From Methylomonas koyamae (GTDB lineage: Bacteria > Pseudomonadota > Gammaproteobacteria > Methylococcales > Methylomonadaceae): a stretch of 64,000 nucleotides of DNA. The position numbers and the translations under genes were made by a program. The first letter of the stretch is position 1, and each line of letters begins with the position of its first letter. The stretch spans positions 1 through 64,000 of the forward strand of contig NZ_PPPU01000019.1 in the NCBI RefSeq assembly GCF_006483455.1, read 5' to 3'. Below the pieces are notes generated by a model that worked only from the letters and a program-made list of their open reading frames with translations, had not been told where the DNA came from and made no database searches. Below, piece by piece: positions 27,671 to 41,292 of the stretch.

Positions 27671-28384
27671 CTATTTGGGACCAACATGGCAATACTCGTT
27701 TTCGACGTCTTGTTTGAACGCCCTGATTTCCCGAGACGGGCCCAAAATGACCAAAATATCGCCTACGTTGAGCCGAAGGTCGATTTCCTCGCCGACGAAG
27801 TGCAAGCGGTCGCTGACCTTTTTGTTGACGATGCCGATCAGCAATAAGTTGTATTGCGACCCCAGTTCCAGTTGACTGGCATGCATGTTTTCCAGAAAGC
27901 TGTGCTCCGGAATCGCCACTTCGGCCAGATGCAAATCGTGGCGGCCGAACACGGTGTGGTCGAAAATTTCGGTGATATCCGGCCTTTTCAACATGTCGTG
28001 AATCTTGCGGCCGCAGATTTCATAAGGGTCGATAATTTTATTGGCGCCGGCCGCAATCAGCTTCTCGGCCGATTCCGGGCTATCGACGATGGCGACGATG
28101 TTCAGATTCGGGTCCAGCGCCCGCGCCGACAGGGTCAGGAACACGTTTTCCGAATCGGTATCGAAAAAGCAGAACAACGTATCGATGTGGCCGCCGACGC
28201 CGGCCAGCCGCAAATCGTCGTCGCTACGGAAATCGATGTTGGCGGTCTCGAAGCCGTTTTCCCGCGCCAAGGCGGCTTTTACCGGGTCGTGGTCGATCAC
28301 CACGATCCGGTAAAACTCCCTATCCAAGCGGCTGATGGCCTCGAACGACAGCCGGTTATAGCCGAACACGGCGATCTGTTTCAT
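27671..28384 (-). CDS. TrkA-type RCK protein (K+ channel regulatory subunit)
   Basis: 237 residues. Rossmann-type TrkA_N domain (IAVFGYNRLSFEAISRL, where the usual GxGxxG is GYNRLS, then VVIDHDP and the DFRSDDD segment) followed by TrkA_C (HASQLELGSQYNLLLIGIV ... LNVGDILVILGPSREI). The first Gly-rich motif is altered, so nucleotide binding may differ from NAD-binding RCKs. The ATG overlaps the stop of the preceding channel gene by four bases (ATGA), which implies coupled translation and probably a heteromeric complex. It ends 16 bases from the convergent antiporter gene. Confidence 0.88.
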   Translation of the reverse strand: MKQIAVFGYNRLSFEAISRLDREFYRIVVIDHDPVKAALARENGFETANIDFRSDDDLRLAGVGGHIDTLFCFFDTDSENVFLTLSARALDPNLNIVAIVDSPESAEKLIAAGANKIIDPYEICGRKIHDMLKRPDITEIFDHTVFGRHDLHLAEVAIPEHSFLENMHASQLELGSQYNLLLIGIVNKKVSDRLHFVGEEIDLRLNVGDILVILGPSREIRAFKQDVENEYCHVGPK

Positions 28385-29982
28385 ATCGACTTCCTGGCAA
28401 ACAGGCGGCGCTGCTCGACCTGATCGCGAAAGTGGTCGATGCCGTACTTACGTCCCAACAGCACCAGGATGTCGCCGCGACGCAAAATGAACTGACGGGC
28501 CGGATTGAAATAAAAATGCTGCTGGTTCACCGGGTACTTGTTCTTGTGTTTCAAATGAATCGGATTGGCGCTGATCACGCCGAGCAAAGTTAATTTACGT
28601 TGCTCCAGATCGAGCTGGCCGATATTTTGGTCCTCCAACGGCGATTTCTCGCTAACCAACACCGACTCCATCACAATGTCGCTCTGGCTTTGCAGAATGC
28701 CGGAAATCGCTTCGAAGGCCACCGGCTGGCCGACGAACTCCGCAGCCAACATCCCGGCGATTTCGAACGGTCGGATCACCTGGTTGGCGCCGGCCTGATA
28801 CAACTTGTTAACGTTGTCGTGGCGGTTGGCGCGGGAAATGATGCGTAATTCCTTATTCAAATGCCGGCTGGTCAGCGTGATGTAGACATTGACCACATCG
28901 TCGCCGGTAATGCACAAAATCGCCGTCGCCCCGCGGCAAATGCCGGCATTCAGTAATACCTCGTTATTGCTGGCATCGTTTTCGATGGCTAAATACCCGC
29001 GCGATTTTGCGGCCTGCACCTTGAACGGCGATTTGTCGATGATGACGAATTTCTTCTGCTCTTCGTGCAAATGACGGGCAATTTCCTGGCCCACCCGGCC
29101 GAAACCGCAAATAATGATGAAGTTATCGTAATGCGCCAACTCGGCATAGGTGCGGCTTTCCCGGACCGACAGCATTTTTTCGCTGAAGGCGGCAATCAGA
29201 ATCGAGGTGAAGAACGACAACACGCCCAGACTGGCCAGAATCAGAAAAATCGTCACCCACCGCCCGCCGGTAGTCTGCGGGGTAATATCGCCGAAACCGA
29301 CGGTCGCCAGCGTGACGACGGTCCAATAAAACGCATCGAACAGGGTGTTGACGCCGGCATTATTCTGGTATTCGAACATGTAAATCGACACGCTGGCGAT
29401 GAAGACCAGAAAGCAGGTAAAGATCAACAGTGTGGTCAATTCGAAACGCTTGCTGGCCAGCGCGTCGGCAAACAACTTGGCGCTATCCGAGTATCGGAAC
29501 AGCTTGAATAAGCGGAAAATAATGAAAATCCGCAAAATGTCCAGCGGCCGGTAACTGGGTAGAATTGCCAGTACGTCGATCACTGCAAATACCGAGGTAA
29601 CGTATTCCAGATCCTTGGCGACCAGTTTTTTGTAGATCCCTGACAGCTTGAACGGCAGATTCAGGTACAGGGCTTTTTCGTATTCTTCGATCACGATTTT
29701 GTAGGTGTCGGAATAAATCCAGCCCCTGAGCAGATATTCGACGATGAACACCATCAGAATCGCCAGCTCGAAATAACCGCCCATCTTGCTGTCGGTGTGC
29801 TCGATGTCGTAGATCAAAAAGATCACGCTCGACACCAGCAACAAGATCATCGTCGCATCGAAATACTTTTTGCGCCGGCTTTGCCGATTTTCCAGCAAAT
29901 CGAAAAAGAACGCCTTGCTGCACTTGTACCAGTGCGCCGCTTTCAGGTAGTACGCGCAATAAACGACGAGTTTGGCGAACAT
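28381..29982 (-). CDS. six-TM potassium channel with C-terminal RCK domain
   Basis: 533 residues. N-terminal cytosolic segment, a voltage-sensor-like block of four helices (YFDATMILLLVSSVIFLIYD, a second with FELAILMVFIVEYLLRGWIYS, ILRIFIIFRLFKLFRYS containing spaced Arg/Lys as in S4), the pore helix and filter TLATVGFGDITP, the inner helix, then an RCK domain (FIIICGFGRVGQEIARHL with intact GxGxxG, VVIDKSPF) and TrkA_C (LLGVISANP, RRGDILVLLGRKYGI). This is a Kv/Kch-like channel gated by ligand binding to the RCK ring. The second RCK gene overlaps its stop. It follows the SDR gene by two bases on the same strand. Confidence 0.92.
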   Translation of the reverse strand: MFAKLVVYCAYYLKAAHWYKCSKAFFFDLLENRQSRRKKYFDATMILLLVSSVIFLIYDIEHTDSKMGGYFELAILMVFIVEYLLRGWIYSDTYKIVIEEYEKALYLNLPFKLSGIYKKLVAKDLEYVTSVFAVIDVLAILPSYRPLDILRIFIIFRLFKLFRYSDSAKLFADALASKRFELTTLLIFTCFLVFIASVSIYMFEYQNNAGVNTLFDAFYWTVVTLATVGFGDITPQTTGGRWVTIFLILASLGVLSFFTSILIAAFSEKMLSVRESRTYAELAHYDNFIIICGFGRVGQEIARHLHEEQKKFVIIDKSPFKVQAAKSRGYLAIENDASNNEVLLNAGICRGATAILCITGDDVVNVYITLTSRHLNKELRIISRANRHDNVNKLYQAGANQVIRPFEIAGMLAAEFVGQPVAFEAISGILQSQSDIVMESVLVSEKSPLEDQNIGQLDLEQRKLTLLGVISANPIHLKHKNKYPVNQQHFYFNPARQFILRRGDILVLLGRKYGIDHFRDQVEQRRLFARKSI

Positions 29983-32620: not shown

Positions 32621-35254
32621 TCACGGCTTCTGCCGATACAACAACCGATTGAAATGATCGGCGTCCAGCGGCGGACTGAATAAATAGCCTTGTACTTCGT
32701 CGCAGGCCAAATCCTTTAGAAACGCCAATTGCTCGTCGGTTTCCACCCCTTCCGCCAACACCGTAAGCCGCAGACTATGGCCCAAAGCCAATATTGAACG
32801 GGTAATCGCGCTGTCGTTGGCGTCCTGGGGGATATCCATCACGAAGGAGCGATCGATCTTCAATTTGTCTACCGGTAAACGCTTCAAATAACTCAGCGAA
32901 GACTGGCCGGTACCGAAATCGTCGATCGCCAATGCCACGCCCAGGCCGCGCAACGCCTCCATGACCCGGATGTTGCGCTGCGCCTGACGCATGATGTAAG
33001 TCTCGGTAATCTCCAGCTCCAGATAGTGCGGCGATAAGCCGGTTTCCGCCAAAACCCGGCCCACCATTTCCAACACATCGCTGCGTTCGATTTGCGCACC
33101 CGACAAATTGACCGCCATCCGCTTGAAGCTAGTGCCGCCCTCGATCCAGGTCCGGGCTTGGCGGCAGGCTGTGCGCAACACAAACTCCCCGATCGGGACG
33201 ATTAAATCGGAATCTTCCGCAATGACGATAAACTTGTCCGGCGGGATCATGCCCCGCTCCCGATGCCGCCAGCGCACTAAGGCTTCCGCCCCGATCAGCG
33301 CGCCGTCCGCCAGCGCATACTGCGGCTGGTAGTGCACCTCCAGTTCGCCGCGTTCCAAGGCATCGCGCAATTCGCCCTCCAGAAACAAGCGCTCTTTGGC
33401 CCGCTCGGTCAAATGCGATTCGAAAAACTGAAAATTGCCGCGCCCGCGTTCTTTCGCTTGATACATGGCCAGATCGGCATGCTTGACCAAGGTGGTGTAG
33501 TCATCGCCGTGGCCCGGAAACAGGCTGATGCCGATCGAGGTGCCGATTTCCAACTTATGGCCTTGTACCAAAAACGGTTGCGCCAGCGCCTGCAACACCT
33601 TGCCGGCGACAATTTCGGTATCGCCCAAGCTGGGATTGTTATCCAACAGGATGATGAACTCGTCGCCGCCCAAACGCGCCACGGTGTCGCCTTGACGCAA
33701 ACTATCCTTCAAACGCTGGCCGGCCATCCGCAGCACCTCGTCGCCGACCGGGTGTCCCAGGCTGTCGTTGACGTGTTTGAATCGGTCCAAGTCCAGGAAC
33801 AGCAATGCCAGGGATTGTTTGCTGCGGCGGGCGACCGCCAAGCCATGTTCGCAACGCTCGCGAAAAAACTGGCGGTTGGGTAAATCGGTCAACGCGTCGT
33901 AATAGGCCAGATAATGGATGTGTTCCGCGTTCTGCTTTTGTTCGCTGAGATCGTAAAACACACTGATGTAACGAATCACCCGGCCGTCGCTATCGCGTAC
34001 CGAAGAAATGTTCTGCCACAGCGGGATCAACGCGCCGTCCTTGCGCCTGTCCCAAATCTCGCCTTGCCATTTCCCTTCCCGCCGCAACGAAGTCCATAGA
34101 TTTTGGTAAAACTGCTTGTTATGGCGGCCGGACTTCAGCACATTCAGCTTGCGACCGATCACTTCCTCCGGCGCATAACCCATAACGCTACTAAAGACTT
34201 GGTTGATCTTCAGAATCTGGGCCTTGGCATCGGTAATCAGAATTGCATTCAGACTGTTATCGAACACGCTGGCCGCCAGGCGCAATTGCTCGTCGACCAA
34301 TTGTTGATCGGTAATGTCCTGCACGGTACCGACCGAACGCAACGGCCGGCCCTCGGCGGAGTAATAATTCTGGGCGCGAACGTGCACCCATTTGACGCGG
34401 CCGTCGGCAAACCTTAAGCGGTACTCGATATCGTAGGGCACCAGATTGTCGACGGATGCTTTAAAAACCCGGTCGACTTGCTCGCGGTCATCCGGATGCA
34501 CCAAGGCCAAAAACGCCTCATAACTCGGCGGAGGCTCCGCCGGTTCCACTTCGAAAATCGGAAAAACCTCGTCCGACCATGCTAAGCGGCCACTGGCCAA
34601 ATCGAGTTCCCAATGGCCCAGCTGCGCAATGTGCTGCGCTTCTTTCAACAAGCTCTCGCTGCGGCGCAGACGCTCTTCCTGTTGCTTCAATTCGGTAACG
34701 TCGGTGGCACAAATCACCGCCCCCTCTTCCTTGCCTTGCGGGTTGTGTAGCAAAACCCCTTTCAGCCAGTAGTGGCGAAAACTTCCGTCGCCGCTGCGCA
34801 AGCGGTGTTCCGCGGCATAAACGCCGCGGCTGCGCACCATCTCGTACAACGGCGAGTAAATCGGCCAGGGCACCTGCCCAAGCTCGGCCTGCAAATGTTG
34901 CACCTCGACCGGATGCAGCCAGCCGTCCGCCACGCCTTGATGCAAAACCAGTTCCGAATCCGCCAATTCCTGGGCGCAGAGCTGGTTGATCTGACTCACC
35001 TTTCCCTCCGGGCCGAGAACGATCATCAGCGCTCCGGTACTATCCATTACCCGCTCGATAAAATCGCTTTGGTGGCGGTATAGCCGATTGGCTTCGCGCA
35101 AGGCATTACTTTGCGACTCCAAGGCTTTTAACATCGCGTCGGTATGCTCGGCATCCTGGCTCATCTGCTGCTCCAACGCCGCATTGGCCAGCCTTAAAGC
35201 GGTTACTTCGGTCCGTAACCGTTCCAATTCCTGCTTCAGCTCCGCCTCAGTCAT
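32621..35254 (-). CDS. PAS-PAS-PAS GGDEF/EAL protein, coupled to the hydrogenase protease gene
   Basis: 877 residues. An N-terminal coiled coil (KQELERLRTEVTALRLANAALEQQM) leads to three PAS regions (about 65-190, 200-320 with the FEVEPAEPP block and W/H-rich PAS motifs, 330-440), then a diguanylate cyclase with intact GGDEF (FGGDEF-like GGDEFIILL near 529) and an EAL domain with EALVRW (near 655) and DFGTGQSSL. There is no transmembrane segment, so it is cytosolic. Its ATG overlaps the stop of the hydrogenase maturation protease gene by four bases (ATGA), so translation is coupled to the hydrogenase operon. PAS domains could sense redox or energy state and so link hydrogen metabolism to c-di-GMP. 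Confidence 0.9.
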   Translation of the reverse strand: MTEAELKQELERLRTEVTALRLANAALEQQMSQDAEHTDAMLKALESQSNALREANRLYRHQSDFIERVMDSTGALMIVLGPEGKVSQINQLCAQELADSELVLHQGVADGWLHPVEVQHLQAELGQVPWPIYSPLYEMVRSRGVYAAEHRLRSGDGSFRHYWLKGVLLHNPQGKEEGAVICATDVTELKQQEERLRRSESLLKEAQHIAQLGHWELDLASGRLAWSDEVFPIFEVEPAEPPPSYEAFLALVHPDDREQVDRVFKASVDNLVPYDIEYRLRFADGRVKWVHVRAQNYYSAEGRPLRSVGTVQDITDQQLVDEQLRLAASVFDNSLNAILITDAKAQILKINQVFSSVMGYAPEEVIGRKLNVLKSGRHNKQFYQNLWTSLRREGKWQGEIWDRRKDGALIPLWQNISSVRDSDGRVIRYISVFYDLSEQKQNAEHIHYLAYYDALTDLPNRQFFRERCEHGLAVARRSKQSLALLFLDLDRFKHVNDSLGHPVGDEVLRMAGQRLKDSLRQGDTVARLGGDEFIILLDNNPSLGDTEIVAGKVLQALAQPFLVQGHKLEIGTSIGISLFPGHGDDYTTLVKHADLAMYQAKERGRGNFQFFESHLTERAKERLFLEGELRDALERGELEVHYQPQYALADGALIGAEALVRWRHRERGMIPPDKFIVIAEDSDLIVPIGEFVLRTACRQARTWIEGGTSFKRMAVNLSGAQIERSDVLEMVGRVLAETGLSPHYLELEITETYIMRQAQRNIRVMEALRGLGVALAIDDFGTGQSSLSYLKRLPVDKLKIDRSFVMDIPQDANDSAITRSILALGHSLRLTVLAEGVETDEQLAFLKDLACDEVQGYLFSPPLDADHFNRLLYRQKP

Positions 35255-35703
35255 GTCGATTCGATCTCGAAATACCCGCGCAGCAAGTCCACCGTCCGCT
35301 CGACCGCCAGGGCGACCGGCGCCGACAAACCGGGCCGGAACGAGACCACGCTGGCGGCTTCCGCAGTGACGACGCGTAAGGCGGGAGGCGCCTCGGGCAA
35401 TGCTGCGAGAGCCCGCAACAGAAAGCCGACACCGTGGCCGTGGCCGACCGTTGTTGGTTCCGTAGCGATTGCTGACGCCGGCAATTCACGCAGCCTGCCG
35501 GGTTGGCCGGCCGGGGCCGAAGCGTCGACAATCACCGCTTCGCAGCAATCCTGAAACAGGACCAGCGCGGAAAGGCCCGGCGTACCGACATCGAACAAGC
35601 GCAGATCGCCGGGCTGCGGCAACTCGGCCAAGCGGCGATAGACGGCCGGCCCGAAGCCGTCGTCGCCATGCAGGGGATTTCCGAAACACAGAATATGCCG
35701 CAC
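35251..35703 (-). CDS. hydrogenase maturation protease (HupD/HybD/HoxW family)
   Basis: 150 residues from GTG 35703, the size expected for these endopeptidases; the longer frame upstream overlaps the large-subunit gene and is not protein-like. Motifs: GNPLHGDDGFGPAV (the family GNxLxxDDGxG with a nickel-sensing Asp), LFDVGTPGL, VDASAP and GHGHGVGFLL (His that contacts Ni). It clips the C-terminal extension of the large subunit once nickel is inserted. The gene lies 20 bases after the large-subunit gene and its stop overlaps the GGDEF/EAL gene start. Confidence 0.85.
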   Translation of the reverse strand: MRHILCFGNPLHGDDGFGPAVYRRLAELPQPGDLRLFDVGTPGLSALVLFQDCCEAVIVDASAPAGQPGRLRELPASAIATEPTTVGHGHGVGFLLRALAALPEAPPALRVVTAEAASVVSFRPGLSAPVALAVERTVDLLRGYFEIEST

Positions 35704-35723
35704 GCCGCCGGAGCCCCGCTTGA

Positions 35724-37241
35724 TCAAGGCGCAAAATGGCGCTTTTTGCCGGTATCCAGCATATGCACGGTACAGACCAGGCAGGGATCGTGAGAACGAA
35801 TGATGTGGCCGATTTCTATCGGGTCCTCCGGATCCTGTACTGCGACGCCGACCAAACTTTGCTCCCAATGGCCCGGCAGGCCGTTACTGTCGCGCGGCGA
35901 CGCGTTCCATGCGGTGGGCGTGACGATTTGATAGCGGGCAATCGCGCCGTCCTTGATCTTTACCCAGTGCCCCAAGGCACCACGCGCGGCCATGATCAGA
36001 CCAAAACCCTCGCCGTCGACCTCGGCCGACTTGCCCGGGTTGAAGATATGCGGTTGGGAAAAATCGACGCTCAATTCGTCCAGCATCCGCCGAGCGCAAA
36101 TCAGTTCGTAGGCGATGCGCCGTACCCTGGCGAATTGCCGGAGCCAGGCATTGCCGCCTTCCAACGCGTGCAAAGACTCGATCAAGGCATCGCCCCCAAT
36201 CAATAATTCGGCCAACGGTCCGGTCTGAACCGCCCTATCGCCGTAACGCGGCGCCTTCGCCCAGGTGTAGCGGTCGCTATTGGGTTGGAAATCGGGAATG
36301 GTTTCGCCGTTTGACGGATGCAATCCGCCTGGGTAAGGCTTGAACCAGGAGTGTCGCACATGTTCGTTAATCATCTGCTGATCCAACGGCGCAATCTGGC
36401 CGCTATCGCCGTCGAAAAACCCTCCCGGCACCAGCCGGTCCTGCGGCTGCTCCGGATCGCACCAGGCGCCGTAACTCAGCATATGCGGCGTGCCGGCCGC
36501 CATGCGTTGCAAGCCGAGCCCACGTGCACTGCGGCTCAGCAAGCCGAGCGCACTGGCAGCATGGGCCGGGGTTTCCAGCCAGCTGAAATAGGCATCGGCA
36601 CTGTCCAGCGCCAACCAATCGTCGAGCCCAGCGCCGATAACGGTCTGCTCGTACCAACGCTGAATCTCATCCAATACCGCCCGGCAGGCAATAATTCGGC
36701 GCAGGTCTGGCGGAGTGGTGACGCCGCCCGGCAACATGTAAGAAGAATGCGGCCATTGCCCGCCGAATTGGGCGACGATCTCGACCGCCTTGCGGCTCAG
36801 CGCCAGCGTCTGCCGGTAAACCGAGCCGCGAAACGGCTCGAAGGCATCCATCAGCTCGGCAAACCAAGGCCGGTCACTATAGCGGGGGTTGCAGAAGTCC
36901 GGAGTAAAGAATAGAAAGGTCTGACGCAGATCGTTCTGTATGCCTTCCGCGATCAGGCATAGATTGCGGATGCGCACCGCGTTGGCCGGCACCGGCAACT
37001 GCCAGGCCTGCTCCAGCGCCAAAACCGCCGAATACAGATGCGCCGTGCCGCAAATACCGCAGACGCGGGGAGTGATGACCAAACCGTCGCGCGGCGCCCG
37101 ACCCAACATGATCTGCTCGAAGCCGCGGTAAAGAGTGCCAACCGTGCGCGCCTGGCTGACGACGCCATCCTCCAACTCGACAGCGATTTCCAGATCGCCC
37201 TCGACTCGATTCAAACTCAGGTTCAGTTCAACCTTGGCCAT
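35724..37241 (-). CDS. [NiFe]-hydrogenase large subunit, probable group 2a type
   Basis: 505 residues. The first ligand motif is RVCGICGTAH (Cys 61 and 64) and the second DPCLVCTVH (Cys 487 and 490, His 493), so all four nickel-binding Cys are present. The last 12 residues (MLDTGKKRHFAP) after His 493 are the removable extension. L1/L2 shape and the absence of Tat features in the partner fit the cytosolic uptake-type group 2a enzymes (HupL/Huc type), as in cyanobacteria and soil bacteria that use trace H2. Its ATG shares one base with the TGA of the small-subunit gene. hyp maturation genes are not in the window. Confidence 0.88.
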   Translation of the reverse strand: MAKVELNLSLNRVEGDLEIAVELEDGVVSQARTVGTLYRGFEQIMLGRAPRDGLVITPRVCGICGTAHLYSAVLALEQAWQLPVPANAVRIRNLCLIAEGIQNDLRQTFLFFTPDFCNPRYSDRPWFAELMDAFEPFRGSVYRQTLALSRKAVEIVAQFGGQWPHSSYMLPGGVTTPPDLRRIIACRAVLDEIQRWYEQTVIGAGLDDWLALDSADAYFSWLETPAHAASALGLLSRSARGLGLQRMAAGTPHMLSYGAWCDPEQPQDRLVPGGFFDGDSGQIAPLDQQMINEHVRHSWFKPYPGGLHPSNGETIPDFQPNSDRYTWAKAPRYGDRAVQTGPLAELLIGGDALIESLHALEGGNAWLRQFARVRRIAYELICARRMLDELSVDFSQPHIFNPGKSAEVDGEGFGLIMAARGALGHWVKIKDGAIARYQIVTPTAWNASPRDSNGLPGHWEQSLVGVAVQDPEDPIEIGHIIRSHDPCLVCTVHMLDTGKKRHFAP

Positions 37242-38182
37242 CAGACATCCATTTCTTTGTTGCGCACCCGCGCCGGTGCCGCGGCTCGGGCCAGATTCTT
37301 ATAGGCCATATAACGGGAGCGCTCGACCCCCAACGGCAATTGGACCGGGATCTCGCCGACTTTCGGCGTGGCGAACAGATCGGCGTCGCGCGGAAAACTC
37401 GGCGAGGTACAGCCGAAACAAGGCACACCGGCCCGCGTTTTACTGCTCACGCCATTCCACAGATCGCTATTGCATACCGCCTGCGTCATCGGCCCCTGGC
37501 AACCCAGATTGAAAAACAGACAGGCGCGACCGCCCGGCTCCAGTTCTTCAATGTCGTATTCATGGTATTCGTTACGGGTACAGCCCTGATGCACCACGGT
37601 ATTGAAGAAGGCCTGCGGCCGATTCAACTCGTCCAACGGTAACGACCAGCCGGCCGCCAAGCCGGCCAGGGTCTGCGTCATCGTGTGCGGATGCGCCGGA
37701 CAACCGGCGACATTGACGACCGGCAGGCCGCGCCGCGACCGCCATTCCGGCGGCAGCAAACCGCCCGGCCGGTCGCGGTCGAATTGCAAGCCGACGCAGT
37801 CGCCGGGATTGGGCGCGGCGGCATGGACGCCGCCAAACGCGGCGCAGGTTCCCATCGCCACCACAACCCCGGCCCGCTGCGCCAACTCGCGCACCATGTC
37901 CATTTTCGCCGTGCCGCGGTAACTGTCGTACAAGCCGGTGCCGCGCGGGGCTGTGACGATACTGCCTTCCACGCATAAAATATCCAGCGCTTGCTCGTCG
38001 ACGACGATGCTCCGATAGAGCTCGTCGTGCTGGCGCATCGGCTGATGGGACAGCGAGGGATGCCAAAGCATGTCGATGCCGCAGTCTGACAGCAAGTGCT
38101 CCAAACTTGGCGCCTCTGCCGACAGAATAGTTAAAGATTCACCGCCGCAGGCGCCGGTTTGTAGCCAGAATAAGGTAGCCAT
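37241..38182 (-). CDS. [NiFe]-hydrogenase small subunit, probable group 2a type
   Basis: 313 residues, no signal peptide and no C-terminal membrane anchor, so cytosolic. The start is MATLFWLQTGACGGESLTIL. The first cluster motif is CGGE: Cys 12 is present but the second Cys of the usual CxxC is Glu, as in the CSGN-type start of group 2a subunits. Further Cys: AMGTCAAFGG, NVAGCPAHP (proximal cluster), HQGCTRNEYHE, FNLGCQGPMT, CNSDLW, PCFGCTSPSFP (medial and distal). The related Huc enzyme carries [3Fe-4S] clusters, and the altered first motif fits this. It starts the hydrogenase operon; 136 bases upstream is an unrelated unknown gene. Confidence 0.87.
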   Translation of the reverse strand: MATLFWLQTGACGGESLTILSAEAPSLEHLLSDCGIDMLWHPSLSHQPMRQHDELYRSIVVDEQALDILCVEGSIVTAPRGTGLYDSYRGTAKMDMVRELAQRAGVVVAMGTCAAFGGVHAAAPNPGDCVGLQFDRDRPGGLLPPEWRSRRGLPVVNVAGCPAHPHTMTQTLAGLAAGWSLPLDELNRPQAFFNTVVHQGCTRNEYHEYDIEELEPGGRACLFFNLGCQGPMTQAVCNSDLWNGVSSKTRAGVPCFGCTSPSFPRDADLFATPKVGEIPVQLPLGVERSRYMAYKNLARAAAPARVRNKEMDV

Positions 38183-38318: not shown

Positions 38319-38936
38319 CTAACCTTTCAACACCCAGGGAAAATACGTCAGCACCAATTCGGCGATGGTTTTGTTCAACTCGGCATTCTGGGCGTTGACG
38401 TATTCCACTTTCTCGTAGAGTTTCAACGAATCGCCAACCGCCGGCATACTGAATTCGCACATCGTAAACAGCGAATAACACCAGGCGTAAATCACCGGGA
38501 TATTGGACTTCAGGTGTTTTTGGGTTTCTTGTTGCAACCATTTAATCTGGTCGGTTTTGCTTTGCTGGGTATCGATGATTTCGATGGTAATGTCGGGGAA
38601 CTCTTTCAGGGCTCTGGCCTTGATGGCTTTGTCTTCTGCAATGTGCTTGTTGTCGAACACATTCAGCGTCATACCCTTTCTATCGACGATATTCGGGATG
38701 TCGCCGTGGCGTCCGGAACACACCTTGAAATTCTTGTGGCCTTGGGAGCGCAACAACGCGACCAGCGGCAACCAGGAGTTTTCGCCGGTTATCGTCACCG
38801 ACAGGTAAAGCTGGCCGACCTGGACCCAGGGACAATCTTCGTCTTTGACCTCGCCCGATAACAGATTCTTACTGACCACGCTCGGCTTTGCGGTCGAGTT
38901 GTGGTTGTACAAGGTATTGGTCGGTTTAGTCGCCAT
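38319..38936 (-). CDS. unknown cytosolic protein upstream of the hydrogenase operon
   Basis: 205 residues, no signal peptide or membrane helix. The N-terminus is polar (MATKPTNTLYNHNSTAKPS). The core has a Rossmann-like alternation: WVQVGQLYLSVTITGENSWLPLVALLRSQGHKNFKVCSGRHGD, VFDNKHIAEDKAIKARAL, ITIEIIDTQQSKTDQIKWL, then NIPVIYAWCYSLFTMCEFSM and a helical end. No family recognised. It is on the same strand as, and 136 bases before, the hydrogenase small subunit, so it might be cotranscribed or merely adjacent. Lys/Asn content is higher than in its neighbours. Confidence 0.6.
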   Translation of the reverse strand: MATKPTNTLYNHNSTAKPSVVSKNLLSGEVKDEDCPWVQVGQLYLSVTITGENSWLPLVALLRSQGHKNFKVCSGRHGDIPNIVDRKGMTLNVFDNKHIAEDKAIKARALKEFPDITIEIIDTQQSKTDQIKWLQQETQKHLKSNIPVIYAWCYSLFTMCEFSMPAVGDSLKLYEKVEYVNAQNAELNKTIAELVLTYFPWVLKG

Positions 38937-40428: not shown

Positions 40429-41292
40429 ATGACGAATACTACCGAAGACGAATTGGTCCGTAAGGCCTTAAAAAACATCAAAATCCCTCCGGCCCCGCAC
40501 GTGCTGGACAAACTGCATAAAGAACTGCAGAAAGACGATCCGGAACTGGACGCCATCGCCGAGATTCTGGCTCAGGATGTCGGTTTGTCGGCGCTGGTAC
40601 TGCGTAGTGTGAATTCGCCGTATTTCGGTTTGCGCACCAAAGCAGTATCGATTCAGCATGCTACCTCGTTGCTCGGCCTGCGCAATATCGTCAATATCGT
40701 CGCCGGCCTGGCTTTGCGACGAGTGTTCGAAGAAAACGAAGGCGCCAATCCGCCGAATTTTTGGGATTCGCCGCTAAACGTGGCAATGGCTGCGACCGCC
40801 ATCGCCCGCGCCGTGTTTTATCCGCGCCCGGACGAAGCCTATATGCTGGGCTTGTTCCACAACGCCGGCCACCCGCTGCTGACCCAGCATTTCGCCGGGT
40901 ATGCCGAGTTCATGTCGCAGCATATCAATACGCCGGAACAGTCGATTTGCACTGCGGAAGACCGCCAATACCAGGTTGAACATGCCGTGCTGGGCTATTT
41001 TCTGGCGCGTGCCTGGGGCTTGGAGAAGCGCATCGCCAACGTGATTCGCGACCACCACCAAGTTAAGTCGCGCTTCTCCGCGCGCGATCGCGGCGACGCC
41101 AGCGAGCTCAGTTTGTTGGCCATCCTGAAAATGGCCGAACATATCGATAAATTGTTTTGGGGCTATCAACCGGATTACGAATGGCTGGAAATCCAGGACT
41201 TGGTGTTGAATTTTGTCGGCTTAAGCGAGAAAGACTTCGCCGATCTGCACCAGGACATTGCCGACAACGTGCTGGGCGGCTTCACCCGTTAA
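40429..41292 (+). CDS. HDOD domain signalling protein
   Basis: 287 residues. An HDOD domain spans most of the protein: LVRKALKNIKIPPAPHVLDKL at the start, LAQDVGLSALVLRSVNSPYFGL, ISIQHATSLLGLRNI and GLFHNAGHPLLTQHF (His-Asn-His where HD-hydrolases have HD), then VEHAVLGYFLARAWGLEKRI and VIRDHHQVKS. HDOD proteins act as adaptors in c-di-GMP or stress signalling rather than as phosphohydrolases. AAGGACC precedes the ATG two bases after DUF1289, so it belongs to the ribF-DUF1289 unit. The last 11 bases overlap the convergent flippase gene. Confidence 0.9.
   Translation: MTNTTEDELVRKALKNIKIPPAPHVLDKLHKELQKDDPELDAIAEILAQDVGLSALVLRSVNSPYFGLRTKAVSIQHATSLLGLRNIVNIVAGLALRRVFEENEGANPPNFWDSPLNVAMAATAIARAVFYPRPDEAYMLGLFHNAGHPLLTQHFAGYAEFMSQHINTPEQSICTAEDRQYQVEHAVLGYFLARAWGLEKRIANVIRDHHQVKSRFSARDRGDASELSLLAILKMAEHIDKLFWGYQPDYEWLEIQDLVLNFVGLSEKDFADLHQDIADNVLGGFTR

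Follow-up and report, generated by a model that had tools for sequence, protein, structure and literature searches.

Introduction

The [NiFe]-hydrogenases of group 2c have been on record since 2016 as a putative link between H2 and cyclic di-GMP (c-di-GMP). HydDB lists the group as "diguanylate cyclase-linked (putative)" and regards H2 sensing and regulation through c-di-GMP production as possible, citing Greening et al, 2016 (PMC5037454). The same proposal has been repeated for methylotrophs (PMC4853749), Methylobacter genomes have been reported to carry group 2c enzymes (PMC12810054), and a gene neighborhood survey has described an EAL/GGDEF/PAS gene cluster close to [NiFe]-hydrogenases (PMC12727194). 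We found no experimental test of any group 2c member in the literature. The regulatory hydrogenase of Ralstonia forms a tight complex with a tetrameric histidine kinase (PMC5665086), and the Rieske protein HucE is encoded with group 2a enzymes (PMC12319191).

Here we analyze a hydrogenase operon of Methylomonas koyamae whose fourth gene encodes a PAS-GGDEF-EAL protein. A preliminary description of this locus took such a pairing to be undescribed, which does not hold, as group 2c already bears that name (PMC5037454; PMC4853749). The role it proposed, in which H2 is reported to c-di-GMP signaling, is plausible but not new, having been suggested in print for group 2c. The pairing itself is already known; the interesting part is a module that is common to otherwise differing partner proteins.

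Results

We analyzed a window of 64,000 nucleotides (positions 1-64,000, forward strand, of contig NZ_PPPU01000019.1) from the M. koyamae assembly GCF_006483455.1, whose GTDB lineage is Pseudomonadota; Gammaproteobacteria; Methylococcales; Methylomonadaceae. The four-gene unit spans 32,621-38,182 and is read from the minus strand, beginning with a [NiFe]-hydrogenase small subunit (37241..38182; 313 amino acids, PF01058 and PF14720) with a CGGE proximal-cluster motif, whose acidic position is residue 15. It continues with a large subunit (35724..37241; 505 amino acids, PF00374) carrying the L1 motif RVCGICGTAH and the L2 motif DPCLVCTVH, then a hydrogenase maturation protease (35251..35703; 150 amino acids, PF01750/TIGR00072), and ends with a PAS-PAS-PAS-GGDEF-EAL signaling protein (32621..35254; 877 amino acids, Pfam). 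The small- and large-subunit genes overlap by one base (TGATG), and the TGA of the protease gene overlaps the ATG of the signaling gene by four bases (ATGA). A listed TTG start for the protease, at 35868, falls within the large-subunit gene; the GTG at 35703 is the likely start, because the proteases of relatives begin near RHILCFGN. The gene order, the overlaps and the 877-residue protein thus read as in the preliminary description, with the domains identified by Pfam and NCBIfam.

Sequence scans, which are a weak test, revealed no sigma-70-like promoter anywhere on the region's minus strand and no terminator-like site at the junction between the protease and GGDEF genes. The four-gene operon of the window contains no electron-carrier gene. 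We did not count two further genes as members, one at 38319-38936 and one resembling spore photoproduct lyase, since they adjoin the operon in close kin only. An HDOD-domain protein (PF08668) is encoded nearby at 40429-41292, and two adjoining genes at 27671-29982 resemble, by eye only, a potassium-channel/TrkA-N pair.

Among solved structures, both subunits are closest to those of the group 2a enzyme Huc (small subunit 7uur, E 1e-85; large subunit 7uus, E 1e-100). We placed the large subunit in a tree of 106 sequences (quick search with SH-aLRT support; a single named 2a reference), and found it within a clade of 70 rows (SH-aLRT 96) that adjoins the pair formed by Huc and locus L149 and lies apart from 26 rows of group 2b. 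This phylogeny assigns the hydrogenase to a group 2c clade, beside and outside both 2a (Huc) and 2b. "Group 2a-like", as the enzyme was previously labeled, is therefore imprecise, and assignment to 2a itself is unsupported by a tree that, with its one named 2a reference, sets the window outside the Huc and L149 pair. Asp or Glu occupies residue 15 of the small subunit in each of the 68 2c-clade rows compared, whereas all 26 rows of 2b have Cys, making the motif CGGC; the remaining likely cluster cysteines are retained. The large subunit carries a cleavable-type tail, MLDTGKKRHFAP, after DPCLVCTVH, while 2b enzymes have no tail. Together with the His in L1, the tail and the acidic residue 15 rule out group 2b.

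The tail is consistent with the dedicated maturation protease encoded in the operon. Because both it and the L1 His are retained, unlike in known 2b sensors, the enzyme could turn over H2 as an uptake enzyme does. The L1 position is Gln in most large subunits of the branch whose partners carry Rieske domains (L128-L147; see below), as in 2b. The group 2c L2 consensus has been quoted as SFDxCLVCTVH (PMC4853749); the window motif, SHDPCLVCTVH, is one position off, and SFD occurs in the clade's members from Deltaproteobacteria.

Across 201 genomes of the host family, where counts depend on the assembled contigs, the large subunit is patchy, with 35 genomes positive at E<=1e-60, a few of them for more distant kinds. 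We fetched 30 2c loci from the family (L118-L147), and all 30 have the fourth gene in the same order, although some copies are cut by contig ends or have a broken frame; the pairing is kept in relatives. The four-gene order, usually with the -4 overlap, also recurs in many other proteobacteria, so the arrangement is not a product of chance. The cultured methanotroph Methylotuvimicrobium buryatense 5G has the same unit (L040). Start/stop overlaps in the relatives' loci are mostly -4, others being -8 or -26, and a few metagenome loci have a gap of ~110-125 bases. An Acidobacteriota locus (L038) has no such signaling partner. The earlier proposal of co-translation is well supported by the conserved ATGA overlap, by this retained pairing and by the scans that found no such promoter or terminator.

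We next consider the signaling protein. An AlphaFold2 model of its N-terminus (mean pLDDT 88) predicts a 70-residue helix (residues 3-72; 35039..35248, minus strand like all coordinates in this paragraph) and a PAS fold, PAS1 (about residues 75-186; 34697..35032), which bears a PQGKEEG motif in the alignment. Foldseek returned generic PAS matches for this helix-PAS module, FAD and LOV PAS domains among them. PAS2 (residues 224-311; 34322..34585; PF08447) and PAS3 (residues 330-434; 33953..34267; PF00989/PF13426) follow, and lead into a GGDEF domain with its GGDEF motif and RxxD inhibitory site (residues 450-606; 33437..33907; PF00990) and an EAL domain with its metal and catalytic residues present (residues 628-862; 32669..33373; PF00563). 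In 42 partner proteins, wherever the sequence is complete, the GGDEF motif (SGDEF in two) and the EAL residues are intact, and so is the RxxD site in all but one. These residue counts led us to reject degenerate c-di-GMP domains, since both catalytic domains look intact. The protein could accordingly be predicted either to make or to break c-di-GMP, and with both domains intact the label "cyclase-linked" is narrower than the sequence evidence.

Other lineages have other fourth genes. GGDEF-EAL partners occur in the window's branch and in Competibacteraceae, Rieske-GGDEF-EAL partners in a second, sister branch of methanotrophs and in Neptuniibacter, and a Rieske-kinase in a Rhodospirillales metagenome-assembled genome (MAG). 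Vibrionaceae have a hybrid kinase, Dechloromonas and its kin a kinase fused to the protease, and Deltaproteobacteria and Nitrospirae a kinase. Mapped on the large-subunit tree, these output labels require six changes against a minimum of five. Complete partners from all but the delta/Nitrospirae branch align over a common helix of ~70 residues and a PAS domain ahead of the output. That one module is common to partners with unrelated outputs points to it as the hydrogenase-facing part. At E<=1e-25 the module was detected in 20 of 121 host-family genomes, all 20 of which hold a 2c hydrogenase with the module directly behind the large subunit; class-wide, each of the four genomes with a module match also has a group 2 hydrogenase, compared to 22 of 321 genomes overall. 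At seven loci (L019, L020, L025, L026, L043, L079 and L151), the protease and a hybrid histidine kinase bearing the module form a single in-frame fusion.

The Rieske [2Fe-2S] domain stands in front of the partners in the sister methanotroph branch, where it suggests an electron path from the small subunit to the sensor, with electron transfer as the signal. We rejected it as a general electron bridge, since partners in the window's branch lack the domain. In a Sedimenticola MAG, a separate and partly decayed Rieske-like frame that has lost its final His lies between the protease and GGDEF genes (L013:3606-4004), which suggests that the window's branch lost its Rieske domain in steps.

We compared the module with HoxJ/HupT kinases using a profile built exclusively from 2c partners (66 sequences); only the uniterated profile was used, because iterating it further pulled in ordinary PAS proteins. 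The kinases encoded upstream of 2b hydrogenases score 26-65 bits and other PAS proteins at these loci up to ~27, so that the weakest HoxJ genes score no better than generic PAS proteins. Genome-wide, the 2b-linked kinase is the top match in seven of eight 2b genomes, and the stronger match in the eighth is its own 2c locus. The module thus appears homologous to the helix-PAS front part of HoxJ/HupT, with modest similarity. Given that the Ralstonia hydrogenase is bound to its kinase, this homology supports, without proving, contact with the hydrogenase here.

The M. koyamae genome has further PF00374 loci on contigs C1 and C17. It encodes HypD, so maturation machinery exists, and a strong NifH-family match makes an internal source of H2 probable. 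A further hybrid histidine kinase carries this helix-PAS module but is an orphan, with no hydrogenase nearby (L150:4414-7425, minus strand, contig C76; L174:3731-6742); it is found in M. koyamae only among the 121 host-family genomes. Next to it are a reverse-transcriptase-like gene, retron-type by eye, and an adjoining gene of 331 amino acids (L174:7868-9810).

Discussion

We propose, with a probability of roughly 0.7, that the group 2c operon encodes a cytoplasmic H2 sensor in which the helix-PAS1 module reads the hydrogenase and shifts c-di-GMP turnover. The protease would mature the large subunit, and the hydrogenase dimer would oxidize H2. Its redox or conformational state would then be sensed by the co-translated protein through its N-terminal helix-PAS1 module, and the signal relayed via PAS2 and PAS3 may shift the balance between c-di-GMP synthesis by the GGDEF domain and its breakdown by the EAL domain. 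The sequences show the gene order, the overlaps, their conservation, intact catalytic residues and the common module; complex formation and H2 dependence are inferred, as would be any direction of the c-di-GMP change. We count against this reading that PAS domains are widespread and that the similarity to HoxJ is modest (26-65 bits).

The hydrogenase might instead be mainly a scavenger of H2 (for example from nitrogenase) like 2a/Huc, its PAS-GGDEF-EAL neighbor tuning behavior to general redox state and being merely co-regulated. The closeness of the uptake enzyme Huc among solved relatives, the retained L1 His and large-subunit tail, and the likely internal H2 implied by the NifH-family match all fit such a role, which we nonetheless consider unlikely: the operon lacks a carrier for the electrons, its partner is a signaling protein with a swappable output and one common module, and the genome has other [NiFe]-hydrogenases. 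Less probable still, and in our judgment very improbable, is that the genes are together for operonic convenience and the c-di-GMP protein senses a PAS ligand of its own, such as oxygen or flavin redox state, with no hydrogenase contact. Three PAS domains could bind such ligands, and FAD and LOV domains are among the structural matches, but the occurrence of the module tracks the hydrogenase across genomes, outputs swap while module and hydrogenase stay together, and one lineage has fused the protease to the kinase.

More tentatively, and with somewhat less than even odds, the sensors of groups 2b and 2c may share one homologous helix-PAS module that reads the hydrogenase, with outputs exchanged several times (kinase, GGDEF-EAL, Rieske-fused and protease-fused); in M. 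koyamae a single hydrogenase may then act on c-di-GMP and, through the orphan hybrid kinase, on a phosphorelay as well. The HoxJ-like module is a concrete place to seek contact between hydrogenase and signaling protein, and the operon in cultured M. buryatense 5G makes the link between H2 and c-di-GMP directly testable. If our proposal is true, H2 availability would be tied to lifestyle control in methane oxidizers.

The locus resembles several known systems in part. The PAS-GGDEF-EAL phosphodiesterases DosP and DibA share the domain order and catalytic residues of the window protein; they have no link to a hydrogenase, and the window protein scores below the equivalog cut-offs for phosphodiesterases of their type. 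Huc of Mycobacterium smegmatis (2a), the closest solved structure, is a respiratory H2 scavenger with a separate position in our tree, and we know of no GGDEF-EAL partner for it. The 2b systems HoxBC/HupUV with HoxJ/HupT (Ralstonia eutropha) likewise combine a hydrogenase with a signaling protein whose helix-PAS front matches our module profile, but they differ in lacking the large-subunit tail, in Cys at small-subunit residue 15, in the Gln of L1 and in their kinase output. Closest is group 2c as defined in HydDB, which shares the group 2 [NiFe] enzyme, the adjoining GGDEF/EAL gene, the methylotroph host and the proposed c-di-GMP-based H2 sensing. The window protein goes beyond that name in also having an intact EAL domain, and its relatives do so in their kinase outputs and their Rieske and protease fusions.
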